From an uncultured Prevotellaceae bacterium (GTDB taxonomy: Bacteria; Bacteroidota; Bacteroidia; Bacteroidales; Muribaculaceae), in assembly GCA_946409635.1 (NCBI GenBank), contig CAMJXD010000008.1, positions 1 to 64,000 of the forward strand: DNA of 64,000 bases. The letters run 5' to 3'. Shown here piece by piece: positions 15,765 to 49,494 of this stretch (position 1 is its first letter; each line of letters starts with the position of its first letter). The position numbers and the translations under genes are program-made. The notes beneath the pieces are model-generated. The model was not told where the DNA came from. It saw only the letters and a list, made by a program, of their open reading frames with translations, and did no database searches.

Positions 15765-16418
15765 CTAAGCAAGGTATTCCGTCGGGTCGTCGATGCCGGC
15801 TTCGCGCAGGGCCTGTCGGCGCTCGGTGCAGGTGCCGCAGGTGCCGCAGTGCTTCTCCCCTCCCTTGTAGCAGGAATAGGTCTCGCTATAGTCCAGACCC
15901 AAGGCCGCGCCATGACGGGCGATGTCGGCCTTGCTCAAGTCGGTATAGGGGGCAAAGACCTTGATTCCCTCGTAGGTGCCCGTCATCATCGCCGTGCTCA
16001 TGGCCTCGATAAAGGGCGAACGGCAGTCGGGATAAATCGAGTGGTCGCCGGCATGGTTGGCAATCATGACGCGCTTGAGGCCGTTGCTCTCGGCAATGCC
16101 GCAGGCGATCGCCAGCATGATGCCGTTGCGGAAGGGGACCACCGTCGCCTTCATGTTCTCGTCGTTGTAGTTGCCGTCGGGGATGGCGTCGGCACTCTCC
16201 AGCAGGGCGCTCTTGAAGTACTTGTGCATGAAGTCCAGTGGTATGATCAGGTGTTTGATGCCCAGGCGCTCACAGTGCATGATGGCACAACGGCGCTCGC
16301 GGCCGTTCTGCGTACTGCCGTAGTCAAAGGTGATGGCCAGCGCTATCTGGTCCTGGTACTCATAGAGCATGGTTGTCGAGTCCATGCCACCCGAGGTAAT
16401 GATAACTGCGTCTTTCAT
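15765..16418 (-). CDS. queC: 7-cyano-7-deazaguanine synthase
   Basis: 217 residues. ATP-dependent conversion of 7-carboxy-7-deazaguanine to preQ0. PP-loop ITSGGMDSTT near the N-terminus, and zinc-binding cysteines near the C-terminus in CYKGGEKHCGTCGTC. The frame is open further upstream, into queF, but the ATG at 16418 gives the canonical start MKDAVIITSGG and lies 1 nt after the queF stop codon (TAATATG), indicating translational coupling in a queF-queC operon. Confidence 0.96.
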   Translation of the reverse strand: MKDAVIITSGGMDSTTMLYEYQDQIALAITFDYGSTQNGRERRCAIMHCERLGIKHLIIPLDFMHKYFKSALLESADAIPDGNYNDENMKATVVPFRNGIMLAIACGIAESNGLKRVMIANHAGDHSIYPDCRSPFIEAMSTAMMTGTYEGIKVFAPYTDLSKADIARHGAALGLDYSETYSCYKGGEKHCGTCGTCTERRQALREAGIDDPTEYLA

Positions 16419-16419
16419 A

Positions 16420-16890
16420 TTAATCGTTGTGGAAATTGCTGATGAGGCGAGCGCGCACCATATCCTGGTGCTCGCTGTCGCCATAGTTGGCAAACGGCTT
16501 GATGCTGATGCCGCCGCGCGGGTTGAACAGGCCGATGACCTCCAGGTACTTGGGATCCATGAGCTTGACCAGGTCCTTCATGATGATGTTGACGCAATCC
16601 TCATGGAAGTCGCCGTGGTTGCGAAAGCTGAACAGATACAGCTTCAACGACTTGCTCTCGACCATGCGCACGCGCGGGATATAGTTGATGATGATGCGGC
16701 CAAAGTCGGGCTGGCCCGTCTTGGGACACAACGAGGTGAACTCGGGGCAATCGAGCGTCACCACATATTCGTTCTCGGGATGCTTGTTCTCGAAGGTCTC
16801 GAGCACATCGGGGCGGTAGTCAAACTCATAGGTCGTGCCCTGGTTGCCCAGCAGCGTCACACCCTCCAGTTCTTTATCGTTTCTTGACAT
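16420..16890 (-). CDS. queF: NADPH-dependent 7-cyano-7-deazaguanine reductase
   Basis: 156 residues from the chosen start. Reduces preQ0 to preQ1. The catalytic Cys is in [13 protein letters not shown], and the QueF substrate motif [15 protein letters not shown] follows. The open frame reaches 16920, but the -7 box (16918-16925) overlaps that codon, so the ATG at 16890 ([10 protein letters not shown]) is the real start; the same start is conserved in the damaged copy at 18232. First gene of queF-queC. Its first 299 nt are duplicated upstream in a chimeric gene. Confidence 0.96.
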
Positions 16891-16917: not shown

Positions 16918-16925
16918 CAAAGGTA
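16918..16925 (-). promoter_or_regulatory. -7 box of queF-queC
   Basis: TACCTTTG on the minus strand. It covers the first Met of the longest open frame and so decides for the downstream start at 16890. Confidence 0.55.
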
Positions 16926-16998
16926 CAAAAAAGTTTTTAGAGATAGATTTCCGTTCCTTGATTTACACATGCAATTGGACCAGCATTTCCCGTAAAAC

Positions 16999-17059
16999 GG
17001 TTTTCGGTGGCTTGGCAGCGGCGGGCTGTCGCCTCGCTTGTGCCAAACCACCGAGAACC
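16999..17059 (-). terminator. Long imperfect hairpin after the chimeric SUMF1 gene
   Basis: GGTTTTCGGTGGCTTGGCA (16999-17017) pairs with TGCCAAACCACCGAGAACC (17041-17059) with two mismatches; a smaller GC stem sits in the loop. It lies 24 nt past the chimera's stop and before the queF promoter, so it probably separates the two transcripts. Confidence 0.5.
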
Positions 17060-17082
17060 AATAATCCTTCAAGGTAAAGGAC

Positions 17083-18232
17083 TTAGAGGGCTAGGCGAAA
17101 GCCTAAGCCATTGGCTACAAGGTCAGCAGACGAATGGTTACGGAACCAAACACGATGGCCGGCTGCAGAATTGAAGAATGCTCCACCACGGAAGGCCCGC
17201 TCCACGCCTGATGCAGGGCCAGTCGGGTTGGTCTGATTTTCGGCGCTGTACGCTCCATAATAATCGTTGCACCATTCCCAGACACTACCGCTCATGTCAT
17301 ACAGGCCCAACTCGTTGGGCTCCTTCTGCCCCACGGGTTGAGTGGTATTAGTTGAATTGTTATTACTATTCCATGCCACATCATTGATGGTGTTGCTGCC
17401 GGCATAGGTATATCCATGGCTCATATTGCCACCACGGGCGGCGAACTCCCACTCGGCCTCGGTGGGCAGGCGGAAGGTCATGCCCGTCATCTGGTTCAGC
17501 TGGGTGATGAACTGTTGGCAGTCGTCCCAAGAGACGCTCTCCACAGGCCTGCTTGTATCACCGGTGAAGTGACTTGGATTGCTGCCCATCACAGCCACCC
17601 ACAATGCCTGAGTCACCTCGGTTTCACCAATGCTATATGACGACAGCGTCACTTGATGGGCGGGCAAGGCGCTCTCGTCATCGCTATCAGGAGTCTCTCC
17701 AGTAAATCCCATTGTGAAGGTGCCGCCGGTAACAGGCACCATATTGAAGGTCACACCACCGATGGTGAAAGAACTCCCGGGCCAACTGCCACTCCACAGG
17801 TAGTTGATCAACACGGACAAGTCGCTGATGTTCACGTTGCCATTCCGGTCACAGTCGGCATTGGCGAGAAAAATGCCCGAGGCATTTTCACTCAGCAGGT
17901 AGTTGATCAGGGCTGTCACGTCGCTGATGTTCACGCAATCCTCATGGAAGTCGCCGTGGTTGCGAAAGCTGAACAGGTACAGCTTCAACGAATTGCTCTC
18001 GACCATGCGCACACGCGGGATATAGTTGAAGATGATGCGCCCAAAGTCGGGCTGGCCGGTCTTGAGGCACAACAAGGTGAACTCGGGACAATCCAGAGTC
18101 ACCACATAGTCATTCTCGGGGAGCTTGTTCCCGAAGGTCTCGAGCACGTCAGGGCGGTAATCAAACTCATAGGTCGTGCCCCTGGTTGCCCAGCAGCGTC
18201 ACGCCCTCGAGATCCTTTTCATTTCTTGACAT
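17083..18232 (-). pseudogene. Chimera: frameshifted queF 5' copy fused to dockerin-like repeats and a SUMF1 domain
   Basis: The minus strand starts with a second queF beginning (ATG at 18232, [18 protein letters not shown]). An extra base in a C-run at 18179-18182 (CCC in queF, CCCC here) shifts the frame and stops translation after 21 codons. The other frame is open from a GTG at 18147 (354 codons). It reads queF sequence including [13 protein letters not shown], switches inside [18 protein letters not shown] to dockerin-like repeats (the second is [21 protein letters not shown]), then enters a formylglycine-generating-enzyme-like (SUMF1) domain: [43 protein letters not shown], ending GLGFRLAL. 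The FGE catalytic cysteines are absent from the [18 protein letters not shown] stretch. The first dockerin repeat is only half present and no signal peptide remains. Probably a pseudogene; a short cytoplasmic product from the GTG cannot be excluded. Confidence 0.8.
17933..18232 (-). repeat. Duplicated 5' part of queF (matches 16592-16890)
   Basis: Hand alignment over about 299 nt finds roughly 26 substitutions (about 91% identity) plus the one-base insertion. About 16 changes are synonymous and about 9 alter residues, including S-to-L and P-to-L next to the catalytic Cys. The promoter regions upstream differ more (TAATTTTG instead of TACCTTTG). The homology ends at TGATGTT (17925-17931), shared by queF and the dockerin coding sequence, suggesting microhomology at the crossover. 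Confidence 0.85.
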
Positions 18233-18309
18233 ATAATCAACAATTTAATTCATTCAGGGCTGCAAAATTACTAAAAAACGCTCCCACACCCTATAGCTGC
18301 CCTACAACG

Positions 18310-19023
18310 TTACCCGAACAATAGGTCTAGGGCAAAACGCGCGGCCTCTTGGCCTTGGGGCTGCAGGTTGTCCAGGCTCTGCAGGGCTGCAAGCCTAACG
18401 GTCTCATCAATGTCGTCGCTGCAGTTGGTGAGCAGGTGGCGGCTATAGGCAACGGTGAACTCGGGGTGTCCCTGGAAGGTAACGACTTGCTTGCCTATAC
18501 GATAGGACTCGTTCTGGCAGAAGGCGCTCGTCGCACATCTCGTGGCACCGTCGGGCAAGGCTGTCACCTGGTCATGGTGGCTATAGAGCAGACGCATCTC
18601 CTGACCCGGGAAATAAGGCTGCATGAGCTCATCCACCACATGACTGGCACGCACACCGGCACCGAAGCCTCCGTCATATTTCCTCACTTCGCCGCCCAGT
18701 GCACGAGCGATGACCTGATGGCCGAAGCACACGCCCATCAACTTGGCGCTACGGCAATAGGCCTTCTCAATCCAATGCAGCAGCGACACGATCCACGGCT
18801 TGTCGTCGTAGGCCGAGTCCAAGCTGCCCGGCACCAGATAGATTTCTCCGGCGTTGATGCCCGACGGCAACTCGCCCTGCCACGTCTGGTAAATTGTGTA
18901 AGATACCGGCTCGTTCAGGGCGGCAATCAGGTCGATGAACAGTGACTCGTAGTTAGGGATAAAACCAGGCAATCGGCCAGGGAACGTGTCACACAACAGG
19001 ATGTTGATGCAGCGCGGTGTCAT
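18310..19023 (-). CDS. Class I glutamine amidotransferase-like protein
   Basis: 237 residues, stand-alone GATase1 domain. The nucleophile Cys99 is in GVCFGHQVIA and the His-Glu pair in FQGHPEF, with an oxyanion-type VPGSLDSAYD earlier. Such GMP-synthase-like proteins hydrolyse glutamine or gamma-glutamyl compounds; the acceptor substrate is not known. The ATG overlaps the stop of the upstream HD-domain gene by 4 nt (ATGA), so the two are translationally coupled. Confidence 0.88.
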   Translation of the reverse strand: MTPRCINILLCDTFPGRLPGFIPNYESLFIDLIAALNEPVSYTIYQTWQGELPSGINAGEIYLVPGSLDSAYDDKPWIVSLLHWIEKAYCRSAKLMGVCFGHQVIARALGGEVRKYDGGFGAGVRASHVVDELMQPYFPGQEMRLLYSHHDQVTALPDGATRCATSAFCQNESYRIGKQVVTFQGHPEFTVAYSRHLLTNCSDDIDETVRLAALQSLDNLQPQGQEAARFALDLLFG

Positions 19024-40639: not shown

Positions 40640-42874
40640 TCAGTGAATGATCGTGTTGACCAGCATGATGACATCCTGAATCGTAATCCTTCCGTTTTGG
40701 TCAATATCGGCTGCCTTTTCAACAAAAGTGGTAGTCATTGTATTCGTCAACAGGTAGTTGACCAGGTCGGTAATATCGATGATATTTACTCGACCGTCGC
40801 CATTCACGTCGCCTAACTCAAAAGGGGGCTCTACCGACCTGAGCACATATTGCAACCCTGCCATAGCATCAATTTTTCCGTTCGGACCGAATCTTAGACG
40901 ATTCACTCCCGTGGTGTAGCTGTCCTTGATTGCGGTTTCGGCCATGATGTGCTTGATCTGAGATACCGACAACTGCGGGTTGGCCTGAAGCCACAGTGCT
41001 ATAATGCCGGCTACTGTCGGGGCGGCCATCGAAGTGCCGCTCATCACTCCCCAGTAGCTGCCTTCATACTGCATTACGGTGCTGGCACTGCCACGGGCAA
41101 AATAGGAGTAACGGCTTCCGGCTGCGACGACATTGACACCTGGAGCGCATATCGTCGGCAATGCCTCTCCAGTGGGGCCGGCACCAGCAATCTGGTAACT
41201 CGAGAACGACGCGATATCACCCATGATTACCGACGTGTCGATCACCTGACGGCCCAGACCCAGGCTATAATAACTGTTGCGGGCAGTATAAGCGCCAGCC
41301 GATATGGTTGAGTCGCCGACGGCATACGTCCCGATGCAGCATGAGTCACTAGGCACCGAATAGAAATCATGTATGCGCTCGCCGTTCATGTCAATAATGG
41401 GCAAGCTGGTGTAACCAAACCGCGACCCGGTATTGCAGGCCCAAGCATCGATATGGCAGGCCGACGAGGAGCGGGGATATATGCTCATGCCTATCGCATA
41501 GCGGCTTTGCTTGACTCCGCCCACTTGGGTATATTTACTGCATAACAAGTTGTGCAGCGTGACTTCCAGGTGATATTTCCTGCCGGCCGAGGCAAACAAT
41601 GTCTCGGCCGACACATAGCCTACGCTGTCCAACGAGTGGCACAGGTAATAGCCGCCCAGGTCCTTGGCATATATCTTGTTGTTCTTGGACAACTCCTCGG
41701 TTTCCCAAACGACCTCTCCAGTTTTCAGGTCCACGATATGAAACTTGTAGTATAGATTGATATTCTCTTTCCTGATCCACATGTCGGAGATGATGCCACC
41801 GTAATAATACGTCGAGTCACCTCCCAGGCTGTTACGGCACTTGAACATCAGGTTCATGGGTGATTCAGCCGATGACACCTTGTGACTATAGGAATATCGG
41901 GAACCGTCATTGCCGGCCGAGATGACAAAGATGCGGCCCGGACCGGAAGTCTGATTCACCACCCTTGACAGGTAGTCCTTGCCGTCGTGCTGACCATTAG
42001 GCGTGCTCACGCTCAGGCTCATCACACAGGGCTGGCCCACGCTGTCGGCATAGCTGTCGATGTATCTCACGCAGTTAGCGACTTCTACTGCCGACATGCT
42101 ACCGTCAAGAACGCTAACGGCACACAACACGATGTCGGATCCTGGAGCCATGCCACCATATCCGTTCACGTGCGATCCGGCGGCGATGCTTGAGGTGTGC
42201 GTGCCGTGGGTCGAGTTGTTGCTGTCCGTTGTGAGCAATTGAATCTCATTGTTCATGAACACCGATCCGGGCAGCCTGATGATCTTATTATAGTTGGCCT
42301 TGTGACCGCTGTTGTCACGTGTGTGATATACCCTCACAATGCGTGACTTAGTGGGATCCTCGTTTGACCTGAACGCTCGGTGCTGGAAGTCAAAACCCAC
42401 GTCAATCACCCCGACGATGACACCACTGCCGTCAAAATTCTGCCAGATTCCATATTGCTGGGCATTCAATACTTGGTCGGTATGGGTCACACGCATGGTC
42501 GTGTCTGTACACAACGCCAGGCGACGGCTGATCTCCACATCGGTCACGCCGGCAACTCGGCACACATCGGTAAGCTTGTCCACCGGTATCTGAGCAGTAA
42601 CAAACCCGTCAAACCTGCTGTTGATAATGACTCCTGCGCGGCTCAGGCTATTCAGCACCAGGTCGTTCTCAACAGCAATAAAGGCATCAACCATGTCGAC
42701 GCCATCCACATTATAAGGGGGCATGAAACGCAGCGATGACTCCGATTGACGGAATTCAGCACTGTAGCTCTGCTCTTCCAAAAACTGCTTGACTGTCACA
42801 GGCAAGAGTCCCTGAGCATTCATGCCTAGCACCGCTAGAGACATCAGCAAGAGGCTATAACACAGTTTTCTCAT
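40640..42874 (-). CDS. Subtilisin-like S8 serine protease with C-terminal dockerin-like repeats (copy 1)
   Basis: 744 residues: signal peptide (1-20), an inhibitor/propeptide-like region (about 55-125, GFVTAQIPVDKLTDVCRVAG), then the S8 domain with Asp158 (GVIDVGFDF), His223 (STHGTH), Asn322 (SAGNDG) and Ser615 (SGTSMAAP). A 150-residue beta insertion (about 340-560) separates the last two. The tail carries two dockerin-like calcium-binding repeats: GDVNGDGRVNIIDITDLVNY and, more degenerate, AADIDQNGRITIQDVIMLVN. It should be exported and degrade extracellular protein. It has its own -7 box (TAATTTTG, 42897-42904) and is separated from copy 2 by 225 nt. Confidence 0.9.
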   Translation of the reverse strand: MRKLCYSLLLMSLAVLGMNAQGLLPVTVKQFLEEQSYSAEFRQSESSLRFMPPYNVDGVDMVDAFIAVENDLVLNSLSRAGVIINSRFDGFVTAQIPVDKLTDVCRVAGVTDVEISRRLALCTDTTMRVTHTDQVLNAQQYGIWQNFDGSGVIVGVIDVGFDFQHRAFRSNEDPTKSRIVRVYHTRDNSGHKANYNKIIRLPGSVFMNNEIQLLTTDSNNSTHGTHTSSIAAGSHVNGYGGMAPGSDIVLCAVSVLDGSMSAVEVANCVRYIDSYADSVGQPCVMSLSVSTPNGQHDGKDYLSRVVNQTSGPGRIFVISAGNDGSRYSYSHKVSSAESPMNLMFKCRNSLGGDSTYYYGGIISDMWIRKENINLYYKFHIVDLKTGEVVWETEELSKNNKIYAKDLGGYYLCHSLDSVGYVSAETLFASAGRKYHLEVTLHNLLCSKYTQVGGVKQSRYAIGMSIYPRSSSACHIDAWACNTGSRFGYTSLPIIDMNGERIHDFYSVPSDSCCIGTYAVGDSTISAGAYTARNSYYSLGLGRQVIDTSVIMGDIASFSSYQIAGAGPTGEALPTICAPGVNVVAAGSRYSYFARGSASTVMQYEGSYWGVMSGTSMAAPTVAGIIALWLQANPQLSVSQIKHIMAETAIKDSYTTGVNRLRFGPNGKIDAMAGLQYVLRSVEPPFELGDVNGDGRVNIIDITDLVNYLLTNTMTTTFVEKAADIDQNGRITIQDVIMLVNTIIH

Positions 42875-45420: not shown

Positions 45421-47739
45421 CTATTCAGCAGCATTCGAGAGGTGATTAACCAATAGCACAACATCAGTGATATTAATGAAACCATCCTGGTTCATATCAG
45501 AGTTGACCCTATGTATTACCGGCGTCTCATCGCTACCTTCCCTTGACAGGAAATTAATCAACACGACTGCGTCGGTAATATTCACAAAGCCATCATCATT
45601 TACATCACCATACATGACATCTTCTCCCATCTGAGCAAGGATATAGCGGGCTCCCGCCATAGCATCAATCTTGCCATTGGGGCCAAAACGGACGCCATTA
45701 TTTGGATCTAAAGTAAATGCATCCTTGACGGCCGTATGGGCAATGATGTCCTTGATATTTCCGGGTGACAGATTGGGATTAATCTGTAGCCACTGGGCAA
45801 TGATGCCCGCAACCGTAGGCGCAGCCAGTGAAGTTCCACTCATTACACCCCAGATGTAACCGTCATCAGTCCTCATTACCAGATTGGGATGTCCGCCCCA
45901 ATCCAGGAAGTAAGAATAACGGCTGGCCGACGAAACCACATCAAAACCAGGAGCCATCACAGTGGGCAACGCCTTCCCTGTAGGTCCATAACCAGGAGAT
46001 TCATAACTAGACAAATTAAAGATGCCACCTATGATCGCATTATAATCATATTGCATCGAATGGTTGGGCAATGAATAAAATGAATTGCGACCAACAAATG
46101 CTCCAGCCGAAATGATTGAGTCATGCACCGCAAAGGATCCGATACTACAGTTATCGCTTGGCCATCGATAGAAGCTGTCATGAGCAACAGCCACAGTATC
46201 ACCATTCTCAGAAATTTCATCGGTATAAACGATTCCACCATAAGACCCAAGATTTCCCTGGACTGTCCATGAATCAAGATAAATGCTATCGGTCTGGTTA
46301 GGATAATATATCTTGGGCGGATAAACCGTCACACCTATTCGATAACGACTAACATAGTTCCCATTACCATCTATCGTATATTCTGTGGTTTTTAGATTAT
46401 AGGCATATGCCTGTAACTCATATTTTCCCGATGACGTCTGAGAAATGAGCGCCTGCAAGTACCCCTCACTGTCGACCGACTGGTTGGGAACAAAATAGTC
46501 ATCAAACTCTGAAGCATTAATCTTCTTAAATAATGTAATCAGATCAGACTTCCATACGATACGTCTAGTAAATGTATCAAAAATATGGAGTTGTGCAACA
46601 GGACGTGTACGGGGATTTCTTATCCATATATCAAACCAAGTGTACTTGTAATAGTAATAAAAATCAGCCGGGCCCTGGCCTTCAGGATAACAAGACATCA
46701 GCATACTCAAAGGCTTCTCCATAGTAGAAGGGCCATAGGCATAGAAGTATCGGCTGCCTGTATTGCCAGCTGCAATTACAAATATGCGTCCGGGGCCTGA
46801 CGTTTGAGCGACGGCTCGTGAAATCCAGTCTGACCCATCATGAGGGCCAAATGTCGTGCTTACGCTCACATTGATGACACAAGGCTTGCCTACACTGTCG
46901 GCATAGGAGAAGATATACTTGATGCTGTTGGCAACCTCGGTCTCGGGGATATACAGGTTCAGGTTCCTGCATACGCACATCACGATATCGGCCCCAGGAG
47001 CCATACCGCCATAACCGCCCACGTGCATGCCAGTTGCAATACCTGCAACGTGAGTGCCATGAGTGCCTGAATTATAGGTCATTGTATCGATCTGTTCGCC
47101 CATGAAGACCGTTCCCGGCAACACCTTATCACCAATTCTTGCCTCATGACCTGTGGAGTCCATGGGGTCATAGACTCTGACGATGCGAGTCTGAGACGGA
47201 TCATCGGTGCGCCTGAATGCAATATGTTGATAATCAAACCCCGTGTCGATGATACCAATCACAACGCCACTGCCATCATAGGCTTGAGGCAGACCATACT
47301 GCGTACCATTCAACACTTGACCGGCATGCGTAACCCGTAGCGTTGTGTCGGTGGCAAGTTTTACCATACGGCTGATTTCGACTTCAGTCACTCCGGGTAA
47401 ACGGGAAATACGAGACAACTCCTTGACAGGTATCTGAGCAGTTACAAATCCATCAAACTCACAATTGACTATCACACCATGCCTTTCCAGGGTAGATATT
47501 ACCGAATGGTTCTCTATACCGATGAAAGCATCGGCCATCTCAACGCCATTGATAAGACGAGTCGGGGCAAACTGTGGCTCATAGGCAAGCGTTTGAGCTC
47601 GGTTAGATTTCATCACGCGCTCGCGATCGGAACGCTCATCCATAAAGCGCTGTATACTGATGGGAACCTCGTCGTTAAACTGAGCAAATCCAACTACCAG
47701 TGATAACAATGCAATAATTGCCAGTATGATTCTTTTCAT
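45421..47739 (-). CDS. Subtilisin-like S8 serine protease with C-terminal dockerin-like repeats (copy 3)
   Basis: 772 residues. Signal peptide (about 1-19), propeptide-like GFVTAQIPVKELSRISRLPG, Asp165 (GIIDTGFDY), His227 (GTHGTHVAG), Ser637 (SGTSLAAP), a long beta insertion before Ser, and two dockerin-like repeats, GDVNDDGFVNITDAVVLINF and SDMNQDGFINITDVVLLVNH. The coding sequence is visibly more AT-rich than copy 1, which suggests separate histories. First gene of the copy 3-copy 2 pair, with a promoter at 47766-47795. Confidence 0.9.
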   Translation of the reverse strand: MKRIILAIIALLSLVVGFAQFNDEVPISIQRFMDERSDRERVMKSNRAQTLAYEPQFAPTRLINGVEMADAFIGIENHSVISTLERHGVIVNCEFDGFVTAQIPVKELSRISRLPGVTEVEISRMVKLATDTTLRVTHAGQVLNGTQYGLPQAYDGSGVVIGIIDTGFDYQHIAFRRTDDPSQTRIVRVYDPMDSTGHEARIGDKVLPGTVFMGEQIDTMTYNSGTHGTHVAGIATGMHVGGYGGMAPGADIVMCVCRNLNLYIPETEVANSIKYIFSYADSVGKPCVINVSVSTTFGPHDGSDWISRAVAQTSGPGRIFVIAAGNTGSRYFYAYGPSTMEKPLSMLMSCYPEGQGPADFYYYYKYTWFDIWIRNPRTRPVAQLHIFDTFTRRIVWKSDLITLFKKINASEFDDYFVPNQSVDSEGYLQALISQTSSGKYELQAYAYNLKTTEYTIDGNGNYVSRYRIGVTVYPPKIYYPNQTDSIYLDSWTVQGNLGSYGGIVYTDEISENGDTVAVAHDSFYRWPSDNCSIGSFAVHDSIISAGAFVGRNSFYSLPNHSMQYDYNAIIGGIFNLSSYESPGYGPTGKALPTVMAPGFDVVSSASRYSYFLDWGGHPNLVMRTDDGYIWGVMSGTSLAAPTVAGIIAQWLQINPNLSPGNIKDIIAHTAVKDAFTLDPNNGVRFGPNGKIDAMAGARYILAQMGEDVMYGDVNDDGFVNITDAVVLINFLSREGSDETPVIHRVNSDMNQDGFINITDVVLLVNHLSNAAE

Positions 47740-47817: not shown

Positions 47818-49494
47818 CTATTGTGTGGTAATAATCACGATTAGCATGGTTACATCGGTGATATTGTACTTGCCATCCTGGTTCAGATCAGCATTAGAGA
47901 AGTTGAAATCCAGAATCTGATTCCCAAGCACATAATTGATATACAAGCTAGCATCTGAGATATTGACTTGTCCATCACTATTTACGTCACCTAGTAGAGC
48001 AGTTGTCTGCGGTTCGATGCGTTCAATAATAAACGAGAGTGTATTGGTATCAAACGTGAACACATAATCACTGCCATCACCCATAAAATAGTAGGAGTAA
48101 TTATTGTTGCGCTTGGCTGTATAATACTGAGTCGACGTGAGGACTGTGGTTGTAGCAGTCGGGCCATAACGATAAGAGCTATTGAATGTCGGCCAGTCAT
48201 CATTCCATTGTTCTGGGCTGCCATCAGCAAACACAAAATAGATGGGATCGCTGATGGTCAAAGTGTCCACATAGATGCCATTGCCCTGATGCGACATTCT
48301 GCCGATTGGCTCAGTCAGACTCCAGTTGCCTACTCCACCAACGATGTAGTAGCTCGGGGTTTCAATAGGCTCTGGCTCGTCGTCATCGACAAAAGCCAAC
48401 GTCTCAAACAAGGCATCCATCACTTGTCCGTTACTATTGTCCCACCATCCACAATTGTACCAGTCGGTTGTTACATGATTGGTGTAATTGATGCCATACT
48501 CATTAGCCTCGGGGAACCACCAGAACAAACCGTTGACATGACTGTGGCCGTTGAGCATTGCCACAAGCGCAGTAGTGAATGCCTTCTGGCCAGCTTCGGT
48601 TGCAGGCCAGACTGACTGCAGATCATAGCTAGCTCCACTGGGATAATAGGCATGAGGATAACCAGTCTCAACTATCTGGATCTGCTTGCCAGGATAACTA
48701 TTCTCCAATTCAGTCAACAGGGCATCCAGCACATTCAGGTCACCATGCCAGTAAGGATAATAGCTGAGGCCGATCACATCAAAGTCGGAGGTATATCCTG
48801 CCAGAGTCCTGTAGAATGATGTCACATTGGTCGATCGACTCATCTCGGTGTGAACAACGACCTTAGCATCAGGACACACTTCACGACAGGCTCTGATGCC
48901 CTGCATCAGATAGGTCGCAAACTGCTGGAACGTGCCACCATTGTTGTCACCACCGTTAGGATAGCAATGGCCTGTTGGCCAAAGCATGCCGTAGGTCACC
49001 TCATTCCCCACCTGGATCAAGTCGGGTGTGGCACCAGCATTCATCATTGCATGGAGCACCCGCTTGGTGTAGCCATAAACGCTGTCGGCCAAGGCTGTTG
49101 TCACGGTCCATGACGATGGAGTAGAATGCTGTCCTGGATCGGTCCATGTGTCGCTGTAATGGATATCCAGCAACAGGTCAAAGCCAGCATCCTTGATGCG
49201 CTTGCCCAATGCCAACACGTAAGGCAGATCTTGGCATACGCCCTCACCCTGGTCTTCAGCGTTGGCCTTTGACGGATCAACGAACAGCCTGACACGCATG
49301 GCATTCATGCCGGTGGCCCTAAGGTAGCCCAGCATATTGGTTATTCTGACGCCATTCTCATTATAGTAAATGGCCCCTTTCTCCTCATACTTGGTCAACA
49401 AAGAGATATCCCCACCCAAATACTTGGTTGTGGCTTTGGACGAGAAGATACCTAACGTTATCAAGCAGATCAACAACAAGTACAATCGTTTCAT
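47818..49494 (-). CDS. GH53 endo-beta-1,4-galactanase with dockerin-like tail
   Basis: 558 residues from the ATG at 49494 (MKRLYLLLICLITLGIFSS, signal peptide); the longer upstream frame lacks a signal and is rejected. The GH53 domain (about 25-345) has the acid/base Glu in IQVGNEVTYG and the nucleophile Glu in IQIVETGYPH, with ITNMLGYLRATGMNAMRVRL at the start. A following domain (about 365-490, YYIVGGVGNWSLTEPIG) resembles the SusE/F-type carbohydrate-binding fold. The end has two dockerin-like repeats, GDVNSDGQVNISDASLYINY and ADLNQDGKYNITDVTMLIVI. It would cut the galactan side chains of pectin. Promoter TATTTTTG at 49524-49531 (minus). Confidence 0.9.
   Translation of the reverse strand: MKRLYLLLICLITLGIFSSKATTKYLGGDISLLTKYEEKGAIYYNENGVRITNMLGYLRATGMNAMRVRLFVDPSKANAEDQGEGVCQDLPYVLALGKRIKDAGFDLLLDIHYSDTWTDPGQHSTPSSWTVTTALADSVYGYTKRVLHAMMNAGATPDLIQVGNEVTYGMLWPTGHCYPNGGDNNGGTFQQFATYLMQGIRACREVCPDAKVVVHTEMSRSTNVTSFYRTLAGYTSDFDVIGLSYYPYWHGDLNVLDALLTELENSYPGKQIQIVETGYPHAYYPSGASYDLQSVWPATEAGQKAFTTALVAMLNGHSHVNGLFWWFPEANEYGINYTNHVTTDWYNCGWWDNSNGQVMDALFETLAFVDDDEPEPIETPSYYIVGGVGNWSLTEPIGRMSHQGNGIYVDTLTISDPIYFVFADGSPEQWNDDWPTFNSSYRYGPTATTTVLTSTQYYTAKRNNNYSYYFMGDGSDYVFTFDTNTLSFIIERIEPQTTALLGDVNSDGQVNISDASLYINYVLGNQILDFNFSNADLNQDGKYNITDVTMLIVIITTQ

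Follow-up and report, generated by a model that had tools for sequence, protein, structure and literature searches.

A queF-dockerin-FGE-like chimera between a GATase gene and queF, probably a decaying product of short-homology recombination

INTRODUCTION

Homology-facilitated illegitimate recombination (HFIR) produces chimeric junctions that, as described in PMC3240628, mostly fall at 3-10 bp of microhomology. Unimodular QueF (preQ1 synthase, TIGR03139) is described with the motif E(S/L)K(S/A)hK(L/Y)(Y/F/W), and its listed catalytic residues are Cys55, Asp62 and Glu97 (PMC5372742). The active site of FGE holds a pair of cysteines, Cys336/Cys341 in the human enzyme (PMC4505483).

We describe a locus that can be set beside these systems, in which the 5′ part of a second queF gene (queF′) is joined within a dockerin repeat to an FGE-sulfatase-like domain. 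It lies in a 64,000-nucleotide window, meaning here the whole stretch of DNA that was analysed. Like HFIR products, the chimera has its junction at a short sequence shared between related genomes, but it shares 10-12 nt with some natural alleles, is an evolutionary relic rather than an experiment, and comes without a located homologous exchange point or donor. Compared with unimodular QueF, queF′ keeps the equivalents of Cys55, Asp62 and Glu97 but ends after the equivalent of Cys99, has the motif broken by a change of K to N and is frameshifted near its start. With a BspA-LRR/dockerin/FGE-sulfatase-like gene that occupies the same slot in relatives, and which we call the parent, the chimera shares position, downstream spacer and residues 498-794, but the signal-peptide-like start, the LRR, the middle of the protein and one half of dockerin repeat 1 have been lost from it.

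MATERIALS AND METHODS

The source assembly is a draft of 134 contigs, 83.6% complete. Relatives from the same genus are denoted by G numbers and their loci by L numbers; ‘own’ refers to the genome that carries the chimera.

Thirty loci were taken from 100 other genomes of the genus, chosen mainly for strong matches to queF′ or to the FGE part. A DNA search at 1e-20 covered 101 genus genomes including the own genome, with four candidates scored per genome; 98 of the 101 gave some match and three gave none. Allele pairs for the junction comparison combined 24 queF alleles (own included) with 7 dockerin alleles, skipping five queF alleles that have other codons there; seven additional rows with the chimera itself stand outside these pairs. 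Private changes in queF′ were counted against 28 relatives plus own queF. The queF and FGE trees were poorly resolved and were not used for naming a donor.

RESULTS

Layout of the locus

Genes on the minus strand of the window run in the order HD, GATase, chimeric stretch (18232-17083), queF, queC and fabD (Table 1). A preliminary description, made from the letters alone, saw queF sequence running into dockerin and then into an FGE-sulfatase-like domain. Profile searches of the 354-aa ORF at 17083-18147(-) agree with it, matching QueF-II at residues 1-74, Dockerin_1 at 72-117 and FGE-sulfatase at 135-353. Beyond the join, the chimera consists of the last ~280 codons of a dockerin/FGE-like gene, whose end is at 17083. 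That description also took the chimera as one gene from the queF start, which does not hold. The ORF from the queF′ ATG at 18232 stops at 18167, 21 codons long, through a +1 shift near codon 17 at a C-run (18179-18182) that counts four in queF′ and three in own queF and in all 28 aligned relatives. The listed open frame of 354 codons begins instead at GTG 18147.

Table 1. Features of the GATase-queF region, in window coordinates
Feature	Position	Strand	Evidence or remark
GATase class-I (glutamine amidotransferase) gene	18310..19023	-	Pfam PF00117, synteny; left border of variable slot
queF′ leader	18233..18309	-	77 nt from GATase stop to queF′ ATG
queF′ (second queF, 5′ ~308 nt, cut off at junction)	17925..18232	-	DNA identity to own queF
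C-run of four, +1 frameshift	18179..18182	-	Comparison with own queF and 28 aligned relatives
Junction word GCGTGAACATCA (coding strand)	17925..17936	-	queF and dockerin allele comparison
Dockerin remnant: repeat 1 second half and repeat 2	17797..17934	-	Pfam PF00404, ORF residues 72-117
FGE-sulfatase-like domain, C-terminus complete	17086..17745	-	Pfam PF03781, 2.6e-44; stop codon 17083-17085
FGE-to-queF spacer and intact-queF leader	16921..17082	-	Strong hairpin; 91% to same spacer of G106, G024
Intact queF	16420..16890	-	TIGR03139, 1.6e-51; 4f8b, 1.9e-68
queC, downstream of queF	15765..16418	-	PF06508

The intact queF downstream has a conserved ATG at 16890, and the ORF list offers a longer TTG start at 16920. 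Folding gives a strong hairpin in the spacer (16930-17083, z -5.65), whose 3′ arm is conserved in G024, G106, G099, G007 and G115, the whole hairpin being seen in G007; the hairpin matched no Rfam family at the gathering threshold. A riboswitch in the queF leader was rejected, as no Rfam match reached the gathering threshold within the window.

The slot in related genomes

The order HD-GATase-slot-queF-queC is kept throughout the 30 loci, except for three without a GATase and two whose contigs end inside queF (G023, G026). In the former group no GATase match lies between HD and queF (L082, L206 and L207, from G036, G093 and G025). The slot is empty in 19 loci, with 26-303 bases between the matched ends, and a full-length parent fills it in 7. 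Two loci carry a parent with an internal deletion, and in the remaining two the gene is a more distant one. The full-length parent has ~800 aa and matches the G024 protein over its whole length, the G023 copy being split into two ORFs at residue 225. Pfam searches of three of the seven found BspA leucine-rich repeats, dockerin and FGE-like domain in two whole proteins, and dockerin and FGE-like domain in the C-terminal ORF of the G023 parent. The internally deleted parents keep residues 7-66 and 699-795 (G007, L078) or 2-297 (G115, L205), and the distant genes match at 51% (G114) and at 54% over a dockerin only (G079).

The chimera genome retains parent residues 498-794, at 78% identity to G024. 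Judged by eye, the parent in relatives has a signal-peptide-like start; this is absent from the chimera, which begins with QueF sequence, so the reported loss of the signal peptide stands. Elsewhere in the own assembly (84% complete) there is no close match to the parental 5′ half: the best-scoring match is 39% identical, and short LRR pieces reach 56%. queF′ and the FGE part are each present only once in the assembly, the next FGE match being at 58%.

Two arms of different affinity

By sequence comparison, the left half of the chimera resembles an empty locus and the right half an occupied one. The queF′ leader is 84% identical to that of empty-slot G002 and, over the 44 nt nearer queF, 82% to that of empty-slot G109, whose leader has the same distance from the GATase stop. 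Parts of it also match empty G102, G073 and G095 as well as occupied G101 (86%, 43 nt) and G100 (79%, 51 nt), so that leaders of this kind occur outside empty slots as well: parts of it front queF in the latter two. Own queF matched the query only from position 77 on, and its leader therefore differs from that of queF′. Within the queF′ leader is a candidate -7 element, TAATTTTG (18263-18270), of the TAnnTTTG consensus type. On the other side, the spacer before the intact queF is 91% identical to that of occupied G106 and G024 and, near queF, 98% over 57 nt to that of empty-slot G035.

Sliding identity puts GATase nt 525-675 at 91% to G002 against 79% for the next best, and finds no clear switch point along this G002-like GATase 3′ end. 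Within queF′ the first 100 nt are nearer to G109 (93%) than to own queF (90%), and the last 100 nt are closest to own queF (96%); in the queF tree, queF′ clusters with own queF, G035 and G100 at weak support (88/69). The best identities of flanking genes among relatives are 78-92%, and no relative is thus close enough for a donor or a direction to be named.

The junction word

The coding strand across the join reads TTCCATGAGGATTGCGTGAACATCAGCGACGTGACAGCC. A crossover at the 7-nt stretch TGATGTT (AACATCA on the coding strand), as first described, is real with respect to own queF, but some natural queF and dockerin alleles have 10-12 nt in common there, the junction word (G)CGTGAACATCA. On the left side, the chimera is exactly like the queF genes of G109, G107 and G099 until AACATCA ends; on the right side, from CGTGAACATCA onward, it is exactly like G024 dockerin repeat 1. 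GTG stands at the junction valine codon in the queF of 12 of 28 relatives. Among the 168 allele pairs, the shared word is 4-7 nt long in 144 and 10-12 nt long in 24.

G109 queF and the G024 parent gene have no common word longer than 11 nt, and the word of that length lies at the join; it occurs in both dockerin repeats, and the chimera join sits at the first of these two copies. With this pair, which was picked after seeing the junction, 2.1e-5 of all possible junction points share at least 11 nt. With own queF, 5.6e-4 of junction points share at least 7 nt, and the longest shared word, of 9 nt, is elsewhere. Going by the frames on either side, the original join would have been in frame when made.

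Spread of the fusion

Among the matches listed in the DNA search of the 101 genus genomes, only the own row spans the junction (query position 386); queF-side matches end at 408 or before and FGE-side matches start at 375 or after. A widespread conserved fusion was rejected on this result and on a scan of named genomes. In that scan, none of the best 80 rows, outside which the nearest genomes may fall, covers both queF′ and the FGE part. Normal QueF sequence continues past the junction place in 73 of the best 80 loci (72 by a loose pattern and one by eye), and the other 7 gave no motif.

A protein search of 60 relatives gave, among the matches listed, non-self matches beginning at query residue 56 or later, with three exceptions that begin at 39, 40 and 47 (G002, G035 and G014, respectively). 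The matches in G002 and G035 have two stops inside. When these genomes were searched for queF, G002 and G035 each yielded a single copy, located on another contig, and G014 yielded none. Within the searches made, the chimera does not appear to be a conserved new protein. A narrow literature search on queF fusions and pseudogenes did not turn up this fusion.

Decay of queF′ and of the dockerin remnant

Over 306 columns queF′ and own queF are 91% identical in DNA. Beside the frameshift, 8 substitutions are private to queF′, of which 7 are nonsynonymous and 1 is synonymous, against 12:38 summed over the 29 intact queFs (Fisher p = 0.001) and at most 4 nonsynonymous in any one of them (G071). In this comparison the ratio counts more than the number, since the method leaves few private changes to any row whose close sister is also included. 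Of the seven residues altered, six are invariant in 29/29 intact queFs and one is the same in 28/29. One change, K80N, breaks the QueF motif, which reads ESNSLKLY; the K is kept in 29/29 intact queFs compared. An alignment of own queF with 4f8b, read by eye, served to place the three catalytic equivalents, which queF′ keeps. The domain is incomplete, covering QueF-II profile positions 5-78 of 115 only.

In the dockerin remnant, 7 nonsynonymous and 1 synonymous private changes fall in 50 codons, with 0-4 nonsynonymous in each of 7 relatives. The Dockerin_1 match opens at profile position 10 of 57, in line with the earlier remark that only half of the first repeat is left; the first loop is replaced by queF′, leaving the protein without two complete repeats. 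The second loop reads DRNG (DQDG, NQDG, DQEG, DQNG or DLDG in relatives) and was not counted as lost. Taken together, the pattern of change in queF′ and the dockerin remnant indicates that the hybrid is decayed and not fresh, against the preliminary reading of a fresh pseudogene or very young fusion gene; the chimera is probably a decaying pseudogene.

Gene conversion from another own dockerin was rejected as the source of the dockerin changes, the best DNA match being G024 (91%). Over 28 other own loci plus contig ends, of 66 own matches, the best own dockerin reaches 73% over a long stretch, with 35-36-nt pieces at 92-97%. Dockerin segments are very common in the own assembly: the dockerin part accounts for most of its 66 matches, which fall in many different open frames. 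Further segments within the window are at 40649-40813, 45430-45612 and 47833-47991.

The FGE-like domain

The FGE-sulfatase match spans nearly the whole profile (4-254 of 255; 152.2 bits, cut-off 23.3). Over 233 codons this part has 4 nonsynonymous and 6 synonymous private changes and no stop, with fewer nonsynonymous changes than any of 7 relatives (6-23). The ratio differs from the 14:2 of queF′ and dockerin together (Fisher p = 0.026), and private nonsynonymous changes divide 7:4 between dockerin and FGE here against 12:88 summed over the 7 relatives (p = 0.0003). The low count in the FGE part could reflect continued selection. The dockerin-FGE stretch (17924-17083 in the window) is however a mosaic at its nt 180-360 and 420-540: one piece reaches 98-100% identity to G024 and another 98% to G100, the full-length values being 86% and 89%. 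The mosaic suggests exchange between species at the locus, and such recombination alone would reduce private changes, confounding the reading as selection. When singletons are counted more strictly, with dockerin and FGE combined, there are 8 nonsynonymous and 4 synonymous changes here, like relatives (6-13 and 2-8), and pairwise dN/dS between this genome and 7 orthologs (0.28-0.50) is similar to that among the orthologs (0.31-0.90), measures that do not separate the time after fusion. Given the 4:6 ratio and lack of stops in the FGE part, and a stricter count that resembles that of relatives, this stretch does not look wholly dead.

The FGE active-site cysteines, reported missing in the preliminary description, are indeed absent at the aligned place by eye, but this is not damage: they are equally absent from 7/7 full-length orthologs. 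Their loss is thus ancestral and was rejected as a sign of decay. As the parent orthologs also lack them, the secreted parent was probably a binding protein rather than an enzyme. The nearest solved chain to the domain, ahead of true FGEs, is 2y3c, Treponema denticola variable protein 1, a diversity-generating retroelement target. The idea that a retroelement drives variation at the C-terminus of the FGE part was rejected, there being no RVT_1 match in this 84% complete genome; a control search was positive in 3 of 14 genomes.

DISCUSSION

The fusion is present in the assembly, and an assembly error is unlikely. From what is read directly off the genomes (sequence, synteny, parental states, junction word and private-change counts), we consider it probable that short-homology recombination between an empty and an occupied version of the locus made the chimera, which then decayed. 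The starting versions would have been GATase, about 78 nt and queF on one side, and GATase, the secreted BspA-LRR/dockerin/FGE-like gene and queF on the other. In an illegitimate exchange, the C-V-N-I codons of queF would have met the N-V-N-I codons of dockerin repeat 1 at 10-12 identical nt. The empty version would have given GATase, leader and the first ~100 queF codons, and the occupied version the dockerin 3′ part, the FGE-like domain, the spacer and the whole queF; with homologous exchange elsewhere, this would be ordinary HFIR. The direction of transfer and the route of DNA entry are what we infer. The product would have had neither a signal peptide nor the second half of QueF. Seven amino-acid changes and the frameshift in queF′ and seven more changes in the dockerin remnant would have followed. 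The intact downstream queF supplies the enzyme. The chimera is presumably not expressed.

Several observations favour this recombination. Congeneric genomes show both parental states at this very position, and either side of the junction is matched exactly by natural alleles. The right-arm spacer matches occupied G106 and G024, and the left leader matches G002 and G109. No word common to G109 queF and the G024 parent is longer than the one at the join, and inter-species exchange at the locus is seen independently in part of the FGE region (98-100% to G024). The preliminary proposal that illegitimate recombination swapped the export end of a secreted protein for a queF leader and 5′ end is thereby well supported.

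Against recombination between locus versions, the queF′ leader type also occurs in occupied G101 and G100, and the word shared with own queF is only 7 nt and not the longest. The 96% identity of the queF′ end to own queF, with the weak tree grouping, could mean local origin or gene conversion. A purely local history, in which duplication gave a tandem queF-parent-queF arrangement and a deletion at this short word then removed the DNA separating the first queF from the dockerin, would agree with own queF being the closest sequence to queF′ overall (91%; 96% in the last 100 nt), and deletions do occur in the slot, as the remnants in G007 (7-66 and 699-795) and G115 (2-297) attest. Yet the leaders of queF′ and own queF are unlike, the first 100 nt of queF′ are nearer G109 (93%) than own queF (90%), and two events are needed, whose intermediate was seen in 0 of the 30 fetched loci; we regard duplication and deletion as rather unlikely. 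It is very improbable that assembly joined two co-occurring strains, one empty-slot and one occupied, even though the assembly is a draft of 134 contigs and 83.6% completeness and the two arms of the chimera look like two haplotypes. A working queF from a second strain would be unlike the damaged queF′, with 7 private changes at residues conserved in 28-29 of 29 plus a frameshift. A word of 10-12 nt is short for a k-mer join. The assembly moreover has no further copy of either queF′ or the FGE part (58% for the next FGE match), and what scores best in it against the parental 5′ half is only 39% identical.

There is also a slim chance that the chimera is a live young gene, with translation of the FGE-like domain still beginning at GTG 18147 or some other internal start and giving a short protein that is under selection and not exported, and with queF′ and dockerin left to drift. 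The open 354-codon frame speaks for this, as do the two contrasts in private changes (4:6 over 233 codons against 14:2, p = 0.026; 7:4 against 12:88, p = 0.0003). The 98-100% mosaic identity to G024 or G100 weakens the contrasts, since recent exchange alone would lower private counts; besides, the frame has no signal-peptide-like start by eye, a frameshift separates it from the leader, and there is no known cytoplasmic job for an FGE-like domain. In the boldest form of this idea, for which the probability is similarly slight, fusion freed an FGE/lectin-like domain from export and dockerin, giving a selected intracellular binding protein under a captured queF leader while queF′ and dockerin erode. 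If true, a secreted domain would have been caught becoming an intracellular gene.

The chimera is a genetic accident that is well documented and is probably no new working gene, and no new kind of system is revealed. It is a useful natural case: sister genomes make it possible to read the product, the two arrangements behind it and naturally occurring forms of the junction word, and such cases help to test how short-homology recombination builds chimeric genes and how those decay. Within one genus, the GATase-queF slot shows a single secreted gene being lost along several routes; the same gene seems to have been lost in different ways in two other species, G115 and G007.
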